NCBI RefSeq assembly: GCF_026421305.1
Contig: NZ_JAPJBQ010000001.1
Span: forward strand, 806,001 to 870,000
Direction: 5' to 3'
Source of the DNA: Dyella silvae
GTDB lineage: Bacteria; Pseudomonadota; Gammaproteobacteria; Xanthomonadales; Rhodanobacteraceae
DNA length: 64,000 bases
The position numbers were made by a program, and so were the translations under genes. Below the pieces are notes generated by a model. The model ran no database searches. It saw only the letters and a program-made list of their open reading frames with translations, and was not told the DNA's origin. Of this stretch, positions 23,170-29,460 are shown in pieces. Numbering within the stretch: position 1 is the stretch's first letter; every line of letters begins with the position of its first letter.

Positions 23170-24723
23170 TTACTTCGAGCCGTACATCGCCGCCGCATCC
23201 GACTTGAACGACGCTGCACTTTCCGGCCGGCTGTAGAACATGTGTCCGCCCGGATACACCGACAGCTTCACCCGCTGGGTCTGGCCGAAGGTCGGCATCT
23301 GGTCGATGATCAGCCGCGAGGTAAAGAACGGGCATGACAGATCGTTGTAGCCATGCACGATCAGCACCTTCATGTTGTGATCGTTGCCGATGGCCTTGCG
23401 CAGATCCGCCACCGGCTTGTCGTCGGCATTGCCGCGATCCCACTCCTTGTTGACCGTGTACGACAGCGCCTCGTAGTGCGCATCCGTCTTCCAGCCCACT
23501 TCGCGCGTGACGAAATCCACCATCGCACTGGTGGTGGGGGCGAGCAATGCTTCGAGAATCGGGTCACCCGACTGGCGTTCAGCGGAGCCCGGGAACGGAT
23601 CGAAGGCGGTCACGTTAGCGTCGTACACGCTGCCGATCTTCTTGTCGTTGCGGTGCAATTCGCGCAGGAAGGTAGCGATATCGACACGACCGTCGAGCTT
23701 GGACACCAGCGCCGGATCGAGCCCCGTATAAGCCGACACCTTCTGCACCATGCGGCCGATGGCACCCGGATCGGAACGCCCCGCCAGGAAATCGGTGACG
23801 AACTGCGTGCGCACATAGTTCTCGACGTCCGACATCGCAGCCGGCGTCAGCTTGCCCTGCGCTTCAAGGCGCGCCGCCGTCATCGACGGCAGGTTGATCA
23901 TCCACGGCAACGGCGAGAGCGCGTCGCCATCGCCAATCGCGGCGGGGTCAAGATACGGCGACACCATCACCAGACCATTCACGCCCACGCCCATGTGGGT
24001 CTGCAATTCATACGCGACGCGTGGCGCGCGATAGCCGCCGTAACTCTCGCCCATCACATACTTCGGTGCGCGCAGGCGGCCATGCTTGACCAGCCAGTCG
24101 TACACCACCCGCGAGAGGTATTTGATGTCCGCCTCGGTGGCATAGAAATCTTTCTTGGTCTGATCCTCGTCCTCCAGCGAGCGCGAGAAACCGGTGCCTA
24201 CCGGATCGATGAACACCAGGTCGCTCATATCGAGCCAGGTGTTGGGGTTGTCCTTGGTCGTCGCGCTGTCGGACGGTGCATCACCATCGACGCCGAACTG
24301 AATGCGCTTGGGACCGATCGCCCCCATGTTCAGGTACACCGACGAGGCACCCGGGCCACCGTTGAACGCGAAGGTCACCGGCCGGTTCGGATTGCTACCG
24401 GGCACCGTGTAGGCCGTGTAGACCACATCGGCGATCTTCTTGCCCTTGGCATTGCGCACGGGGATGGTGCCCACCGTAGCCTCATAGGAGACCGTACGCC
24501 CACCCACCCGCACGCTCTGCTTGATGGCTTTGTCGGCCGGCAACGGCGGCAGATCGATATCGGACTTCTTCTCGGCACCGGCTTCCGCGGCCGGTTTGGC
24601 GTCAGCCGCCACGGCAAACGACCACGGCGACAGGGCCGCTCCCAGGGCCAGCACGGCCGCACACCAGGCGGCGCCGCGCTTCACGCGGGCTACACGGCCC
24701 CCAACAGGCAGATCACGCTTCAT
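23170..24723 (-). CDS. secreted S10-family serine carboxypeptidase
   Basis: The 517-residue protein has a long signal peptide (basic residues 1-16, hydrophobic to about 38, cut near VAA) and an alpha/beta-hydrolase core. S10 motifs are FNGGPGASSVYLNMG (oxyanion region), MGESYGGYRAP with the nucleophile Ser, the Asp in HGYNDLSCPF, and the His in PGGHMFYSR. It should cleave C-terminal residues from peptides in the periplasm or outside. The ATG at 24723 is the first with a signal-peptide-like sequence; in-frame codons to 24837 have no such character. It is divergent from the ECF sigma gene, with 252 bases between. Confidence 0.93.
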   Translation of the reverse strand: MKRDLPVGGRVARVKRGAAWCAAVLALGAALSPWSFAVAADAKPAAEAGAEKKSDIDLPPLPADKAIKQSVRVGGRTVSYEATVGTIPVRNAKGKKIADVVYTAYTVPGSNPNRPVTFAFNGGPGASSVYLNMGAIGPKRIQFGVDGDAPSDSATTKDNPNTWLDMSDLVFIDPVGTGFSRSLEDEDQTKKDFYATEADIKYLSRVVYDWLVKHGRLRAPKYVMGESYGGYRAPRVAYELQTHMGVGVNGLVMVSPYLDPAAIGDGDALSPLPWMINLPSMTAARLEAQGKLTPAAMSDVENYVRTQFVTDFLAGRSDPGAIGRMVQKVSAYTGLDPALVSKLDGRVDIATFLRELHRNDKKIGSVYDANVTAFDPFPGSAERQSGDPILEALLAPTTSAMVDFVTREVGWKTDAHYEALSYTVNKEWDRGNADDKPVADLRKAIGNDHNMKVLIVHGYNDLSCPFFTSRLIIDQMPTFGQTQRVKLSVYPGGHMFYSRPESAASFKSDAAAMYGSK

Positions 24724-24879
24724 CAGAACTCTCACGAAAAGGTCAAACGACAGGAAGCCAGCCGGCTCCCAAGCACTCCCCACAACACCCGGGCGGCCCC
24801 GGATGCGAACGCCATAGATGCGTAAACCCGAACGCATCCACCAGTGCCGTTAGGCACGGATACCCGCCCAGGCAGCAAA

Positions 24880-24905
24880 GGAACGCCACCCGAATGGCCC
24901 CCGTC
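24880..24905 (+). promoter_or_regulatory. putative ECF-sigma-dependent promoter
   Basis: GGAAC at 24880-24884 and CGTC at 24902-24905 are 17 bases apart, the typical layout of ECF sigma promoters. It lies just ahead of the ECF sigma gene, as for positive autoregulation. The transcript would start near 24912, giving a leader of about 60 bases to the ATG at 24976. Confidence 0.5.
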
Positions 24906-24975
24906 AGGCATTTGAACCAGAATGGCGTTCGAGGGTATGGACGCCTGGGCATTGCACCAGTTTCCGGGAGCGGCC

Positions 24976-25566
24976 ATGCACGGCGGCGATTCAGGCACGG
25001 GCAAGTGGAGCAACGGCGTCTCTGACGACGACGAGGCAGTGCTGCTCGGCCGTGTCGCCGCCGAAGAAGTGGCTGCGTTCGAGGACCTGTACCGCCTCTA
25101 TAGCCCACGTCTGCAGCGATTCGTTCGCGGCATCACCAGGCAGCCAACGCTGATCGAGGAAATTCTCGATGACACCATGATGGTGGTCTGGCGCAAGGCG
25201 TATACCTTCAATCATTCCGCCAAGGTGTCGACCTGGATCCTGGCGATTGCTTATCGGCAGTCTTTAAAGGCATTACGTCGATCGGGTGACGCGATCCACG
25301 ACGAGGTCGCCGACCATGCCGACCTCTCTGCCGCCGGGCCCGACGACGTATTGCTGCAGCAGGAGCTGCGCAAGCATCTGGACGCTGCGCTGAGCACGCT
25401 TTCGACCGAACAGCGCACGGTGATGGAACTTACCTACTACTTCGGCTACGCCTGCCGCGAAATCGCCGAGATCATGGGTTGCCCGGTCGACACCGTCAAA
25501 ACGCGCATGTTCTATGCGCGACGCAAACTCAGGGCGTGGCTGTCCTCACGCAGGGAGGCCATATGA
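24976..25566 (+). CDS. ECF RNA polymerase sigma factor
   Basis: The 196-residue protein has sigma region 2 (about 25-95; AAFEDLYRLYSPRLQRFV and ILDDTMMVVWRKA) and region 4 (about 130-190; LSTEQRTVMELTYYFGY, CREIAEIMGCPVDTVKTRM). The usual region-2 QE/Q-E-t-F pattern reads LDDTMMVVW. GGGAG 5 bases before the ATG at 24976 favours this start over ATG at 24922, which would follow the presumed transcription start too closely. Its stop codon overlaps the anti-sigma start (ATGA). It probably directs transcription of its own operon and envelope genes. Confidence 0.92.
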   Translation: MHGGDSGTGKWSNGVSDDDEAVLLGRVAAEEVAAFEDLYRLYSPRLQRFVRGITRQPTLIEEILDDTMMVVWRKAYTFNHSAKVSTWILAIAYRQSLKALRRSGDAIHDEVADHADLSAAGPDDVLLQQELRKHLDAALSTLSTEQRTVMELTYYFGYACREIAEIMGCPVDTVKTRMFYARRKLRAWLSSRREAI

Positions 25567-26195
25567 ATGGCCGCATCATTAAATTCGAAGGGCCGGTTCA
25601 CGCCGAAGTGGACCGCCTGCTGCCCTGGTGGGTCAACGGCACACTGGACGACGACGAGCGTACGCAAGTCGAGCAACACGTCGCCGAGTGCGTGGCATGC
25701 CAACGGGAGATAGCCTGGCTCAGGGCGATGCAGCATGCCTATGACGCAAAGGATGTGGCCGCCAACGACGCCACGCCTGCCCTGCGCCGGCTTCGCCGCC
25801 GCGTTGCTCATGAACATGCCAACGCCATCGCCTCGCCCATCACGAGCTGGTGGCATCGGAATCGCCGTGTGGCCTGGGTGATCGCCGCTCAGGCGGTGCT
25901 CATGCTCGTACTGGGTGGCGCCTGGCTGCAACAGCGTGCGCCCTCGTATCACACGCTCAGCACTCCCACAGCGAAGAGCGAACTACTGGTCGTGACGTTC
26001 GACCCCAAGACCAGTGAAGCGCGACTGCGTGAACTGCTGCGCGCCAACCACGCGCGCCTGGTTGGCGGTCCCTCGCAGACAGGCGCTTATCTGCTCAGCG
26101 TGCCGGATGAGAATGCCGATGCCGCACGCCAGCGGCTACGTCATGCCCCGGAAGTGACTCTGCTGGAAAATCTCGACTCGGGCGGTTCACCGTGA
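25563..26195 (+). CDS. anti-sigma factor with periplasmic subtilase-prodomain-like domain
   Basis: The 210-residue protein starts with a zinc-finger anti-sigma (zf-HC2-type) domain, with ligands H39, C43 and C46 in EQHVAECVACQ. It has one membrane helix (about 103-122) and a periplasmic tail. Within the tail, about residues 135-205 (LLVVTFDPKTSEARLRELL, GAYLLSVP and the closing HAPEVTLLENL) look like the alpha/beta prodomain or I9 inhibitor fold that precedes subtilases such as fervidolysin. It is translationally coupled to the sigma gene before it and the subtilase after it (4-base overlaps on both sides). It should hold the sigma factor at the membrane until a periplasmic cue releases it. 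Confidence 0.85.
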   Translation: MNGRIIKFEGPVHAEVDRLLPWWVNGTLDDDERTQVEQHVAECVACQREIAWLRAMQHAYDAKDVAANDATPALRRLRRRVAHEHANAIASPITSWWHRNRRVAWVIAAQAVLMLVLGGAWLQQRAPSYHTLSTPTAKSELLVVTFDPKTSEARLRELLRANHARLVGGPSQTGAYLLSVPDENADAARQRLRHAPEVTLLENLDSGGSP

Positions 26196-27469
26196 ACAGG
26201 CACTGGCGAAGCTTCATCGCCGTGTGCGCACTTGCCGTTGCAGGATGCGCCTCCAACGCGACCATGGCCGTTCACGCCGGCGACGCCGTGGGTAACGAAG
26301 CATCGCAAGTGCTGGTGATGTTGCCTTCGGTACCTCCTCATCTTCATGCCTCTGCCGATTACGGCGGCCATTACAGCGCTACAACGGGAAGCACTAGCCG
26401 ACTGCGTGTCGCCCAACAACTCGCGCACGAGTATGGGCTCGAACTTGTCAGCGACTGGCCGATGCCTGCGCTGGGCCTGGACTGCTTTGTCATGCGTACC
26501 GCGCCGGGGAAATCCGTAACGCAAGTGACTCAGGCGCTGGCACACGATGCACGCGTGGAGTCGGCCGAGCCGATGCAGCTGTTTCATGTACTGGCCAAGC
26601 GTGACCCGCTTTACCCCTTGCAACCCACGGCGTCCCAGTGGCATCTCGCCGAGCTTCATGCCACTACCACCGGCAGGGGCATCACCATTGCGGAACTGGA
26701 TAGCGGCGTCGACACATCGAATCCCGACCTCGCCGGACAGGTCACGCAAACGCAGAACTTTGTAGATAACGGCCCTTATCGTGCAGAACTGCATGGCACA
26801 GAAGTCGCCGGCGTTATGGTTGCCATCGAGGGAAACGGGTTGGGCATCGCCGGTGTTGCACCCGACGCCCGCCTGCTTGCCTTGCGGGCCTGTTGGCAGG
26901 AAGCCGCCAACGCTGCTGCGATGTGCAGCAGCTTTACGCTCGCAAAGGCGTTGCAGTACGCACTGGAAAACCACGCCCAGGTTGTCAATCTGAGTCTGGC
27001 TGGCCCCTACGACAGGCTGCTTGAACGCCTGCTGGAGATTGCCCTCTCGCGCAATGTCACGGTTGTCAGCGCCATCGATGGCGCGGCGGCCGATGGCGGC
27101 TTTCCCGCCTCGCTGCCGGGCGTGCTGGCGATTGCCGATGAAGGCACGACATCCGCGGCGATCACCGGTGCCATGCGTGCCCCCGGACAGGATGTTCCCA
27201 CCACACTGCCGGGGCGGCGCTGGGACTTCGTGACGGGTTCATCGTTCTCCGCCGCAGAAGTCAGCGGGCTGGTAGCGTTGATTCGTCAGCTGTCGCCGGA
27301 CATCCCGGCAGGTCAGCTACGCGACGCTCTGGCGACGAGAACTGCGCTAGGCTTGGTCGCAATGCGGCCGACCATGATCGATGCATGTGCGGCTGTGGCG
27401 CGAGTCCGGGGGAACTGCACGTGCGACTGCGCTACGGCCCATGCTTCCATCGGGGAGCTGCGCCAATGA
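26192..27469 (+). CDS. subtilase (S8 family) lipoprotein, possibly impaired
   Basis: This 425-residue lipoprotein starts with GTG at 26192 inside the previous stop codon. Lipobox LAVAGC puts the lipidated Cys at 19. A prodomain-like segment (about 38-132) precedes the subtilase core, with catalytic D170 (AELDSGVD), H201 (ELHGTEVAGV) and S351 (GSSFSAAEVSG). The oxyanion-hole Asn expected in an AAGN-like motif reads VVSAIDGA, with Asp at 296, so full activity is uncertain. The C-terminus has a Cys cluster NCTCDC. Its 4-base overlaps in the sigma/anti-sigma operon suggest that it acts on the anti-sigma factor or the same envelope process. Confidence 0.88.
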   Translation: MNRHWRSFIAVCALAVAGCASNATMAVHAGDAVGNEASQVLVMLPSVPPHLHASADYGGHYSATTGSTSRLRVAQQLAHEYGLELVSDWPMPALGLDCFVMRTAPGKSVTQVTQALAHDARVESAEPMQLFHVLAKRDPLYPLQPTASQWHLAELHATTTGRGITIAELDSGVDTSNPDLAGQVTQTQNFVDNGPYRAELHGTEVAGVMVAIEGNGLGIAGVAPDARLLALRACWQEAANAAAMCSSFTLAKALQYALENHAQVVNLSLAGPYDRLLERLLEIALSRNVTVVSAIDGAAADGGFPASLPGVLAIADEGTTSAAITGAMRAPGQDVPTTLPGRRWDFVTGSSFSAAEVSGLVALIRQLSPDIPAGQLRDALATRTALGLVAMRPTMIDACAAVARVRGNCTCDCATAHASIGELRQ

Positions 27470-27478
27470 GAACGCCCC

Positions 27479-28177
27479 GTGTTACGAGCGATGCTAGCCG
27501 CCGGTGTCGCGTTATTTGCGATCGCAGCCCACGCGCAGGTTGCGGGCAGCGTATCGCTGGCATCCGACTATCGCTTTCGCGGTATCTCGCTCAGCGACGA
27601 TCGCCCGTCGGCTCAGGCTTCGATCAGCTACGACCCACCCACGAGTGGCTGGTACGCAGGCGGCGCCGTGTCATCGGCGCGGATCGACCAACAGACGGCA
27701 GCGCAGCTACTTGGCTATGCGGGCTTCGTGCAGCGGCTGCGGCCCAACCTGAGCTGGGAGGCCGGCGTGACCTACAGCCGATTCACGGGACACGAATCGT
27801 ATGCGTATGCAGAAGCCTACGCTGGCATCACCTATCGGCAAATCGTGGCGCGTTTGTACTACGCACCCGACTACTTCAATTCCGGCGTGCCCGTGTTGTA
27901 CGGCGAACTCAATGGGAGTCACGCATTGCACGGCAACTGGTACCTGTTTGGTCACCTCGGCTTTCTGCGGCGCAATGGCAACCTGACCATGGATCACACC
28001 AGCCGCTATCGATCGGATCTGCGCGCGGGCATTGGCGTGACCCTCAAGCCTGTCGATATCCAGCTCAGCTGGTCGGGCGTTCACGGTGGTCATGGCTCGG
28101 GCTATCTGTTTGGTTATCCAGTGAGCAATGAGGTGACACGCGACGCCTGGATCATCAGTCTTTCGTACAACTGGTAA
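27479..28177 (+). CDS. TorF-like (Gcw_chp) putative outer-membrane beta-barrel protein
   Basis: The 232-residue protein has a signal peptide (hydrophobic 4-17, cut near AHAQ). Alternating beta-strands follow, starting with GSVSLASDYRFRGISLSDD, the opening signature of the TorF/Gcw_chp family of putative porins, and ending with the aromatic tail SLSYNW typical of outer-membrane barrels. It begins at GTG 27479 or ATG 27491; an ATG at 27466 overlapping the subtilase stop is one frame off. Its tight spacing places it in the sigma-factor operon. Whether it forms a pore is not established. Confidence 0.75.
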   Translation: MLRAMLAAGVALFAIAAHAQVAGSVSLASDYRFRGISLSDDRPSAQASISYDPPTSGWYAGGAVSSARIDQQTAAQLLGYAGFVQRLRPNLSWEAGVTYSRFTGHESYAYAEAYAGITYRQIVARLYYAPDYFNSGVPVLYGELNGSHALHGNWYLFGHLGFLRRNGNLTMDHTSRYRSDLRAGIGVTLKPVDIQLSWSGVHGGHGSGYLFGYPVSNEVTRDAWIISLSYNW

Positions 28178-28374
28178 GAGCACCAACAACGTTCCAACGC
28201 CTCGCCTTAGCGAGCCACGGAACGGGTAAACATGGAAAGGAGGACGCGTTCGCAGACCATCGCGAGGCCCTCACGCGCCTTACTCACCGACACCGTCCCG
28301 GATTGACGTCATCCGGACAAGGTGCGGCACGCATGGACTTGCCCCTGGTTTTTCACCGAATGGAGGAGTCCCTA

Positions 28375-29460
28375 ATGACATCTACCCCTCGTCAAAAGAC
28401 GTTGGTTCGGCATCTGCTAGCCGCCATGGTGTCGGTACTCGTCGCCTCGAGCGCCCTGTACTCGCTACCGGCGGTCGCGCAGAACGACAACGCCCACATA
28501 CTCATCGCCGATCAGTTCAACAACCGTGTTATCGAGATCAACCGGTTTACGCATCAGGTCGTGTGGCATTTCGGCAATGGCTCGGACATTCCGGGCCCGC
28601 AGAGTGTCGTCGGCGTCAATGATGCCGAACGCATCGGGCCTTTCACTCTCATATCAGGTACCGGCACACCGCCGGGGCTGCCCGGGTGCGCAGACACCGT
28701 CAACGGCTGCCCCGACAACCGGGTGTTCATCGTCGATCAGAGCGACCACATCCTGTGGCAGTACGGCCAGGCAGGCGTCGCCGGCGCAGGCCCCAACCAG
28801 CTCAATACGCCGGTCCACTCGCTTTACCTAAACAGCTTCCCCTATCACCTGGGCCCTCACGTGCTGATCACCGACCAGGGCAATCAGCGCATCATTCTGG
28901 TCAACTTCGGTCGCCAGATCGTCTGGCAATACGGCACCACCGGCACGGCCGGCAATGGCGCCAACCAGCTCAACAATCCCAATAGCGCCGAAGTGCTGCC
29001 AAACGGGCACATTCTCATCGCCGACGAAAACAACAACCGCGTCATCGAGATCAGACCCAATGGGACTATCTTCAAAACCTTCACCGCAGGAGGCACGGTG
29101 AGCGGAGCGGCGTTTGCAAGCCGCCTGCCTAATGGGCATACGCTGATCACTGACTCCAACAACAACCGCATCGTCGAAGTGGACGGCAACGACAATGTAA
29201 CGTGGCAGTACTTCACCAATACGCAGGCGGGCAGCAACCCCTCGCCGCTTCCCACCCGCGCGATACGGCTGAGCAATGGCCACACGTTGATCAGCGATCA
29301 GTTCAACAATCGCGTCATCGAAATCACCATGGGTAAACAGATTGTCTTCCAGCAGGGTGCACTCAACGTTGCTGGCGACGGCTTCAATCAGCTCAATGGG
29401 CCGTATGACGCCAAGGTGATCGGCGACTTCAATGGACTGACGCCACCGTTCGTGTTCTGA
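28375..29460 (+). CDS. secreted six-repeat beta-propeller (NHL-like) protein
   Basis: The 361-residue protein has a signal peptide (hydrophobic about 15-30, cut near AVAQ) and about six copies of a 45-60-residue unit. Each unit has a core such as HILIADQFNNRVIEI followed by a Trp/Gln-rich strand such as VVWHFG or IVWQYG. The units begin near residues 40, 110, 160, 210, 255 and 310. This suggests a six-bladed NHL or PQQ-like propeller. GGAGG lies 8 bases before the ATG at 28375. No catalytic residues are recognisable, so it is more likely a binding protein of the periplasm or exterior. A terminator follows; 197 bases separate it from the porin gene. Confidence 0.75.
   Translation: MTSTPRQKTLVRHLLAAMVSVLVASSALYSLPAVAQNDNAHILIADQFNNRVIEINRFTHQVVWHFGNGSDIPGPQSVVGVNDAERIGPFTLISGTGTPPGLPGCADTVNGCPDNRVFIVDQSDHILWQYGQAGVAGAGPNQLNTPVHSLYLNSFPYHLGPHVLITDQGNQRIILVNFGRQIVWQYGTTGTAGNGANQLNNPNSAEVLPNGHILIADENNNRVIEIRPNGTIFKTFTAGGTVSGAAFASRLPNGHTLITDSNNNRIVEVDGNDNVTWQYFTNTQAGSNPSPLPTRAIRLSNGHTLISDQFNNRVIEITMGKQIVFQQGALNVAGDGFNQLNGPYDAKVIGDFNGLTPPFVF

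Follow-up and report, generated by a model that had tools for sequence, protein, structure and literature searches.

A conserved ECF sigma factor module in which a prodomain-like anti-sigma tail may partner the neighbouring subtilase

Described Systems and the Dyella silvae Locus

Several described systems share features with the locus considered here, which lies in a 64,000-nucleotide stretch of the Dyella silvae genome (the window: positions 806001-870000, contig 11, of a 4.45-Mb genome) and encodes an extracytoplasmic function (ECF) sigma factor, a membrane anti-sigma factor, a subtilase lipoprotein and a TorF outer-membrane barrel. In sigmaV/RsiV of Bacillus and Clostridioides, the extracytoplasmic domain of a membrane anti-sigma factor binds a whole enzyme, lysozyme, as its ligand; lysozyme comes from outside, whereas here the gene for the putative partner belongs to the same operon, and the domain that would receive it resembles a prodomain. 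Cell-surface signalling of the Fox/Fec type also unites an ECF sigma factor, a membrane anti-sigma factor and an outer-membrane barrel, and the binding of FoxA protects FoxR from proteolysis (PMC11637429). The present module, however, has a TorF barrel and a subtilase, with a prodomain-like tail for the C-terminal domain of FoxR, and no TonB-dependent receptor with a signalling domain, as in FecA/FecR/FecI, was found; by Pfam, the barrel beside the subtilase is a Gcw_chp/TorF protein of 232 aa. For ECF54, control by a protease has been proposed and subtilase genes are conserved in the sigma neighbourhood; it is described as working without an anti-sigma factor (PMC8999054), whereas the tail-bearing anti-sigma factor is a constant part of the present module. 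In eukaryotes, the subtilase S1P is controlled by a second protein, SPRING, that competes with its prodomain, but S1P keeps its Asn338 and SPRING is not known to be prodomain-like (PMC11231238). Finally, CspB and PCSK9 are self-processed subtilases whose prodomain stays bound (PMC3567191; for PCSK9 also PMC11231238), and the active site of CspB is blocked by the C-terminal end of its prodomain (PMC3567191). Unlike the present subtilase, they are not known to be linked to a sigma factor, and the active-site contacts of CspB include an Asn (287) (PMC3567191).

All four genes of the module lie on the plus strand: the sigma factor (24976..25566), the zf-HC2 anti-sigma factor (25563..26195), the S8 lipoprotein (26192..27469) and the barrel (27479..28177). 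A previous sequence-only reading had the genes running in one direction with overlaps of 4 bases among the first three, and both overlaps are present, ATGA at 25563 (sigma/anti-sigma) and GTGA at 26192 (anti-sigma/subtilase); the barrel starts 9 bases past the subtilase stop. The proposal made here, to which an even chance is given, is that the module is a self-contained, autoregulated ECF signalling unit in which the subtilase partners the tail of the anti-sigma factor. We think that the subtilase is the dedicated ligand of this tail, so that a protease-like protein may be the signal. If true, this would be the first ECF system, as far as searches show, with a prodomain-subtilase handshake as the signalling contact, and it would explain why a widespread subtilase subfamily has lost the oxyanion Asn and yet kept its catalytic triad. 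It would also give the TorF-type barrel a role, and the defined promoter can serve as a read-out. Literature searches for the combination of sigma factor, tail-bearing anti-sigma factor and subtilase gave no description, and the sequence-only reading had likewise known of none; the group may have an entry in the 2021 ECF reclassification.

Conservation of the Gene Arrangement

A search of 61 related genomes with the subtilase found strong matches in 29, among them the genome of the window; there are 31 such matches (E ≤ 3.7e-53), the next best match lying at 1.1e-18, and 22 further genomes had only weak matches, to other subtilases. In all 30 relatives that were fetched, sigma factor, anti-sigma factor and subtilase follow one another in this order on one strand, the anti-sigma gene being located by tblastn in 29 and by position in L053. 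The proposal that the genes form one conserved unit is thus borne out. With starts in the relatives picked nearest to a 4-base overlap, such overlaps were seen between sigma and anti-sigma in 27/30 and between anti-sigma and subtilase in 21/30. When the tail of the anti-sigma factor was used by itself, 31 tails were found in the same 29 genomes as the subtilase and none in the other 32; the tail profile was built from these loci, so that the positives are partly circular while the absences are not.

A wider set, referred to as the named loci, consists of the best 80 of 515 relatives from a contig scan with the subtilase alignment. These come mostly from Beta- and Alphaproteobacteria (Duganella, Massilia, Janthinobacterium, Sphingomonas, Caulobacterales) and Gammaproteobacteria, with records from Acidobacteriota and Verrucomicrobia as well. 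Although the loci were found by subtilase similarity alone, a tail-bearing anti-sigma gene adjoins the subtilase in 78 of the 78 readable ones. It lies directly 5' of the subtilase on the same strand in 77/80 (76 by a neighbour rule and L172 by inspection); the two genes are divergent in L151, and L177 and L178 begin at the subtilase. The sigma factor is present in 72 of the 80, while L163, L173, L177, L178 and L181 end too early. Separation of the anti-sigma and subtilase genes in related genomes, which the sequence-only reading had named as one refuting outcome, was therefore not seen, and with 30/30 fetched relatives and 78/78 readable named loci the gene arrangement is far beyond chance.

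At a greater distance, 369 genomes were sampled from the class, and 19 of them have a match to the tail profile (21 matches in all, with at most 14 candidates scored per genome). In the 19 further loci, the sigma gene precedes the anti-sigma gene in 18, L098 being cut, and an S8 gene follows the anti-sigma gene in 13, with none in five and L101 cut. Six of these 13 S8 genes belong to the subfamily of the window and seven to a sister group (L094-L099, L102), whose S8 proteins have a longer N-terminal part and, in L097, the one scanned, a TIG domain. In L100 a gene for a caspase (C14) with Sel1 (L100:6611-7975) follows the tail-bearing anti-sigma gene in the place of the subtilase. It was also observed that L086, L088 and L089 form one family, in which a sigma/tail-bearing anti-sigma pair has no protease neighbour; the genes near the pair in L086 and L089 resemble, we presume, dnaJ, dapB and carA/carB.

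The Prodomain-Like Tail of the Anti-Sigma Factor

The anti-sigma factor matches zf-HC2 in Pfam (E 8.1e-9), and its HxxxCxxC motif occurs in 30 of 31 sequences (window and relatives). The N-terminal position of this motif and a modelled long helix at about aa 97-123, which is taken as the membrane anchor, place the protein in class I, the zinc-finger type. An AlphaFold model from 25 sequences (mean pLDDT 82.8, pTM 0.42) consists of a helical N-terminal domain, the long helix and a tail, predicted to be periplasmic, which covers aa 129-210 (25947..26192, plus strand). The tail is modelled as beta-alpha-beta-beta-alpha-beta, with block-mean pLDDT values of 92-97 and of 75 in the last block.

The sequence-only reading had called this part prodomain-like, a description that gains from a weak Fervidolysin_NPro-like match in Pfam, from the modelled fold and from comparison with the subtilase's own prodomain. 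The Fervidolysin_NPro-like match is below the cut-off for the whole anti-sigma factor (E 0.003) and at the cut-off for the tail alone (E 4.6e-4; 21.0 of 21 bits). PF22148 matches 12/31 tails at E ≤ 0.1 (best 1.2e-6) and 2/31 own prodomains of the subtilases (best 5.5e-4). Alignment of the tail with the subtilase's own prodomain by hhalign gave 87.8% with E 3.3e-6 over 54 columns. The first 28 Foldseek matches of the tail model include the subtilisin propeptides 2z58_B, 3cnq_P, 1spb_P and 1scj_B (TMt 0.67-0.74) and pro-subtilisin E (3whi). Judged at the level of sequence, the relation between tail and prodomain is more specific evidence than the Foldseek list.

The end of the tail was also compared. 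Its C-terminus lies exactly 8 residues after a conserved last-strand Glu (+8), as in the window, in 58 of 109 proteins and at +6 in 25, with other distances between 4 and 16 in 26, so that 51/109 tails are shorter or longer than +8. When pro-subtilisin E (3whi) is aligned to the subtilase, the position at +8 from the Glu/Gln in the final strand of the prodomain falls on the last residue of the propeptide, a Tyr that we take to be the cleavage site. The +8 residue could be read in 67 of 111 subtilases whose strand matched the pattern (Tyr 23, Leu 22, Gln 11, Met 6, other 5), the 44 with an unmatched strand being left out. The tail therefore combines a ferredoxin-like fold with a C-terminus in register with the scissile position, where the register depends on two chained alignments: tail to own prodomain, Glu to Glu, and own prodomain to 3whi. 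Since the tail ends at +8 after the Glu, in register with the end of the 3whi propeptide, the anti-sigma factor looks like a prodomain with a stop codon at or near the cleavage site. Where no subtilase adjoins the anti-sigma gene, the tails in a family of three loci end at +13, +6 and +14, that of L091 ends at +8 and that of L100 has no clear Glu.

A rival explanation would be that of an ordinary envelope-stress sigma/anti-sigma pair whose subtilase and barrel are mere output genes, the likeness to a prodomain being that of a common ferredoxin-like fold. Ferredoxin-like folds are indeed widespread, and the Foldseek list is mixed. However, the profiles of the tail and of the own prodomain are related, and both have matches to one Pfam prodomain family; the C-terminal length of the tail is narrowly conserved, and co-occurrence in the 61 genomes is complete (29 with both, 32 with neither). 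In addition, three loci have anti-sigma factor and subtilase with no sigma factor. This explanation is considered improbable.

The Subtilase and Its Missing Oxyanion Asparagine

The subtilase of the window matches Peptidase_S8 (Pfam, E 7.6e-25) and has the fold and the triad of that family (Asp170, His201, Ser351). Its lipobox reads AVAGC, with Cys19, and a lipobox pattern occurs in 25/31 subtilases (window and relatives); its own N-terminal prodomain covers aa 38-134 (26303..26593, plus strand). The model, made from 60 sequences (mean pLDDT 85.9, pTM 0.72), gives this prodomain the order beta-alpha-beta-beta-alpha-beta too, and Foldseek ranks pro-subtilisin E (3whi, E 9.6e-24) first among the matches of the model. 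All 31 sequences of the window and relatives retain Asp, His and Ser, and so, in that order, do 80/80, 80/80 and 79/79 readable ones of the named loci (one is cut). By contrast, an Asn at the oxyanion position was found in 0/31 and 0/80, two sets with at least 3 records in common. In the window, the codons of A294-I295-D296-G297 (27071..27082, plus strand) stand at the position of Ala-Ala-Gly-Asn in subtilisin, a register on which PDB alignments agreed. Among the PADLOC models, a general subtilase one matched, IetS matched weakly and CARF gave a weak match to the sigma factor.

In human PC1/3 the change N309K leaves removal of the prodomain in place, although slowed, and the secreted enzyme is without activity (PMC4182778). 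The kept triad and the lost Asn fit an enzyme that processes itself and then binds. Poor activity of the subtilase on other proteins is somewhat more probable than good activity, and in a subfamily that lacks the oxyanion Asn, a binding or single-cut role is likelier than that of an ordinary protease. The control of sigma release by the subtilase, which the sequence-only reading had suggested, is kept here as a proposal, with this change in the part that the enzyme would play.

The main rival to a binding role is that the subtilase acts as a site-1 protease: bound to the tail, it would cut the anti-sigma factor once, RseP would follow, and release of the sigma factor would give positive feedback. 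This accords with the Asp, His and Ser kept in all readable sequences and with the sister modules, where the same type of anti-sigma factor stands beside Asn-intact S8 enzymes or, in L100, a caspase gene. There is an M50 protease in the genome, a trivial point since 14/14 control genomes have one. The eukaryotic S1P, a subtilase, cuts SREBP, and SPRING licenses it by displacing the inhibitory prodomain (PMC11231238). On the other hand, no member of the subfamily that was read has the oxyanion Asn, and such a change removed the activity of secreted PC1/3; moreover, a receptor with its C-terminus in the active site resembles an inhibitor rather than a substrate. For the window's subfamily a site-1 protease appears unlikely; it may hold in the Asn-intact sister group.

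A Possible Ligand-Receptor Mechanism

According to the proposed mechanism, the cytoplasmic half of the anti-sigma factor would hold the sigma factor, and the periplasmic tail would serve as a subtilisin-prodomain-like receptor whose partner would most simply be the subtilase encoded next door. The subtilase would probably remove its own prodomain once and, without the oxyanion Asn, cut other proteins poorly or not at all. The processed subtilase could then dock on the tail, whose C-terminus would occupy the active-site cleft at the place taken by the end of a cleaved prodomain. At the outer membrane, the TorF barrel might present, release or titrate the lipoprotein. A change in the occupancy of the tail by the subtilase would decide the fate of the anti-sigma factor: once general periplasmic proteases and RseP had destroyed it, the freed sigma factor would transcribe the operon, together with a divergent gene for a surface or redox protein in some hosts.

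The mechanism builds on what the sequences show, namely the linkage and co-occurrence of the genes, the relation between tail and prodomain, the register of the C-terminus, the lost oxyanion Asn and the conserved promoter; its further parts differ in how probable they are. Physical binding of tail and subtilase is likely, whereas the barrel as the outer-membrane partner is somewhat doubtful. As to direction, protection, in which the loss of free subtilase switches the sigma factor on and so replenishes the subtilase, is put forward tentatively, and cleavage induced by binding is thought unlikely. Taking CspB, FoxA and SPRING as precedents, together with the kept triad and the lost Asn, a ligand-receptor pair is favoured, and protection slightly over activation. 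In its most general form the idea is held with clear reservation: across several phyla, a self-processed, catalytically blunted subtilase would act as a signalling ligand, the anti-sigma factor would be a tethered, ready-cleaved prodomain ending at the scissile position, and the sigma factor would report free periplasmic subtilase, as in a PCSK9-like ligand-receptor pair.

Several observations weigh against this mechanism. The loci L104, L105 and L107 keep anti-sigma factor, subtilase and barrel with no detectable sigma factor (a possible fragment of a sigma motif was noticed in L104). A tail-bearing anti-sigma factor lacks an S8 neighbour in 5 of 18 informative distant loci (L086, L088, L089, L091, L100), and in the sister group, which has the same kind of anti-sigma factor, the oxyanion Asn is intact, L099 being cut right after it. 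Human PC2 works with an Asp at the oxyanion place (PMC4182778); given this and the Asn-intact sister subfamily, loss of the Asn is neither proof of inactivity nor class-wide. No Foldseek match of the tail reached E ≤ 0.001, and the list is mixed with ribosomal S6 and other ferredoxin-like folds; neither the tail profile nor that of the own prodomain picked out a prodomain chain among the PDB sequences. Over 397 columns, the subtilase model aligns with pro-subtilisin E at an rmsd of 18.8, compared with 3-4 for the catalytic domain alone, which means that the model places even the subtilase's own prodomain unlike that of pro-subtilisin. Lastly, 12 of the 80 named loci are without a barrel within 4.5 kb, several of them at contig ends.

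The Sigma Factor and Its Promoter

The sigma factor is a short protein with sigma-70 regions 2 and 4 only, as expected for the ECF type (Sigma70_r2 E 1.8e-9, Sigma70_r4_2 E 4.8e-14 by Pfam; length 196-214 aa). Its frame is open from 24922 on. The conserved ECF-type promoter element TTGAACC-N14-GGGTAT, found upstream of the sigma gene across relatives, covers this first possible start (24912..24938, plus strand), and the ATG at 24976, giving 196 aa, is therefore the most likely start.

In an unseeded count of spaced tetramers, GAAC-N17-GTAT was found upstream of the sigma gene in 16 of 41 non-redundant loci with a downstream barrel, as against at most 6 loci for any pair in three shuffles. A two-block promoter model, its first block seeded with this motif, was built from barrel-upstream loci and, in 44/46 barrel-downstream loci, scored the element higher than the 99th percentile of the control stretches; the reverse test, with a model from barrel-downstream loci, found it in 17/32 barrel-upstream loci. 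A count of 78/86 refers to the training set and is thus not independent. The only exact match to TTGAACC-N14-GGGTAT in the window's genome is the site before the sigma gene. With at most one mismatch, five of six genomes have one site at the sigma gene in its own orientation, and in the sixth, G033, a site 72 bases before the sigma gene is oriented toward the divergent gene. The same pattern search in the six genomes gave no wider regulon: total matches were about those of a reversed-pattern control, and the remainder was at control level. The promoter is presumably recognised by the operon's own sigma factor. Its place before the operon itself would also suit subtilase and barrel as output genes. 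An alternative promoter candidate, GGAAC-N16-CGTC at 24879, occurred in 1/102 loci, which is control level, and was rejected.

In 13 of 45 barrel-downstream loci, a promoter in the opposite orientation passes upstream of the sigma gene, compared with 1/829 in the control, and nine of the 13 score at least 17. Eight of these nine, all but L118, were scanned with Pfam and seven of the eight also with NCBIfam. The divergent gene encodes a TIGR03118 protein in L034, a plastocyanin-type copper protein (Pfam) in L037 and L135, the L037 frame also holding a ResA-type redoxin domain, a PEP-CTERM protein in L153 and a protein with RTX repeats (Pfam alone) in L136. In L106, L108 and L111 the divergent minus-strand gene encodes the JDVT-CTERM sorting protease MrtJ, above the family cut-off, and in L106 it is followed by a gene for a JDVT-CTERM protein with a redoxin domain. 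Given the families behind these divergent promoter copies, surface-anchored and redox proteins are probable recurrent co-targets of the sigma factor and hint at its physiology. Copper-protein genes were seen beside the module in L037 and L135 (Pfam) and, by eye only, in L060, L062 and L120.

The gene divergent from the window's own sigma factor encodes an S10 serine carboxypeptidase (Pfam; 23170-24837, minus strand) and has a common upstream region with it. The scan found no opposite-facing promoter site for this gene, and tblastn found no match to it in the 30 fetched relative loci.

The Outer-Membrane Barrel and Neighbouring Genes

The barrel protein of 232 aa matches Gcw_chp (E 2.2e-14) and nothing else in Pfam, and TorF TIGR02001 in NCBIfam (5e-23). 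It is the one PF09694 protein in the genome of the window; 37 genomes searched have 0-3 each, an underestimate of the background, since many barrels in barrel-upstream loci escape the Pfam model or come only just within its reach. With a profile from 18 module barrels, 13 of them from the 30 fetched loci, a TorF-like barrel was found somewhere in 30/30 fetched loci, in varying order, and within 4.5 kb in 68/80 named loci (52 downstream, 16 upstream). Such constancy would also be expected if the barrel were the main sensor of a cell-surface-signalling relay, touching the anti-sigma factor, while the subtilase only guards or recycles the barrel; classical signalling joins outer-membrane receptor, anti-sigma factor and ECF sigma factor (PMC11637429). 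A TorF barrel of 232 aa, however, is too short to hold a plug or signalling domain as well, a prodomain-like tail suggests the subtilase as partner and not the barrel, and no barrel is detectable in four loci of 10.8-13.1 kb (L127, L162, L165, L174). A barrel sensor is accordingly regarded as very unlikely.

A barrel-specific promoter copy in barrel-upstream loci was rejected as a candidate, having been found in 1/32. That the barrel stays adjacent although its own promoter site is present in so few of these loci argues that it is more than an output, and speaks against subtilase and barrel as mere output genes.

Two copies of the module occur in G013 (L033, L055), which has one of each barrel arrangement, and in G007 (L050, L061). 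L042 (L042:3044-9237) has a cytochrome c gene before the barrel and, close after the subtilase, a gene for the GTP cyclohydrolase FolE2 (Pfam); genes resembling these neighbours were seen by eye in several other barrel-upstream loci. In the window, the barrel is followed by a gene for an NHL-repeat secreted protein (28303-29460), which adjoins the module in L033 too (72% identity).

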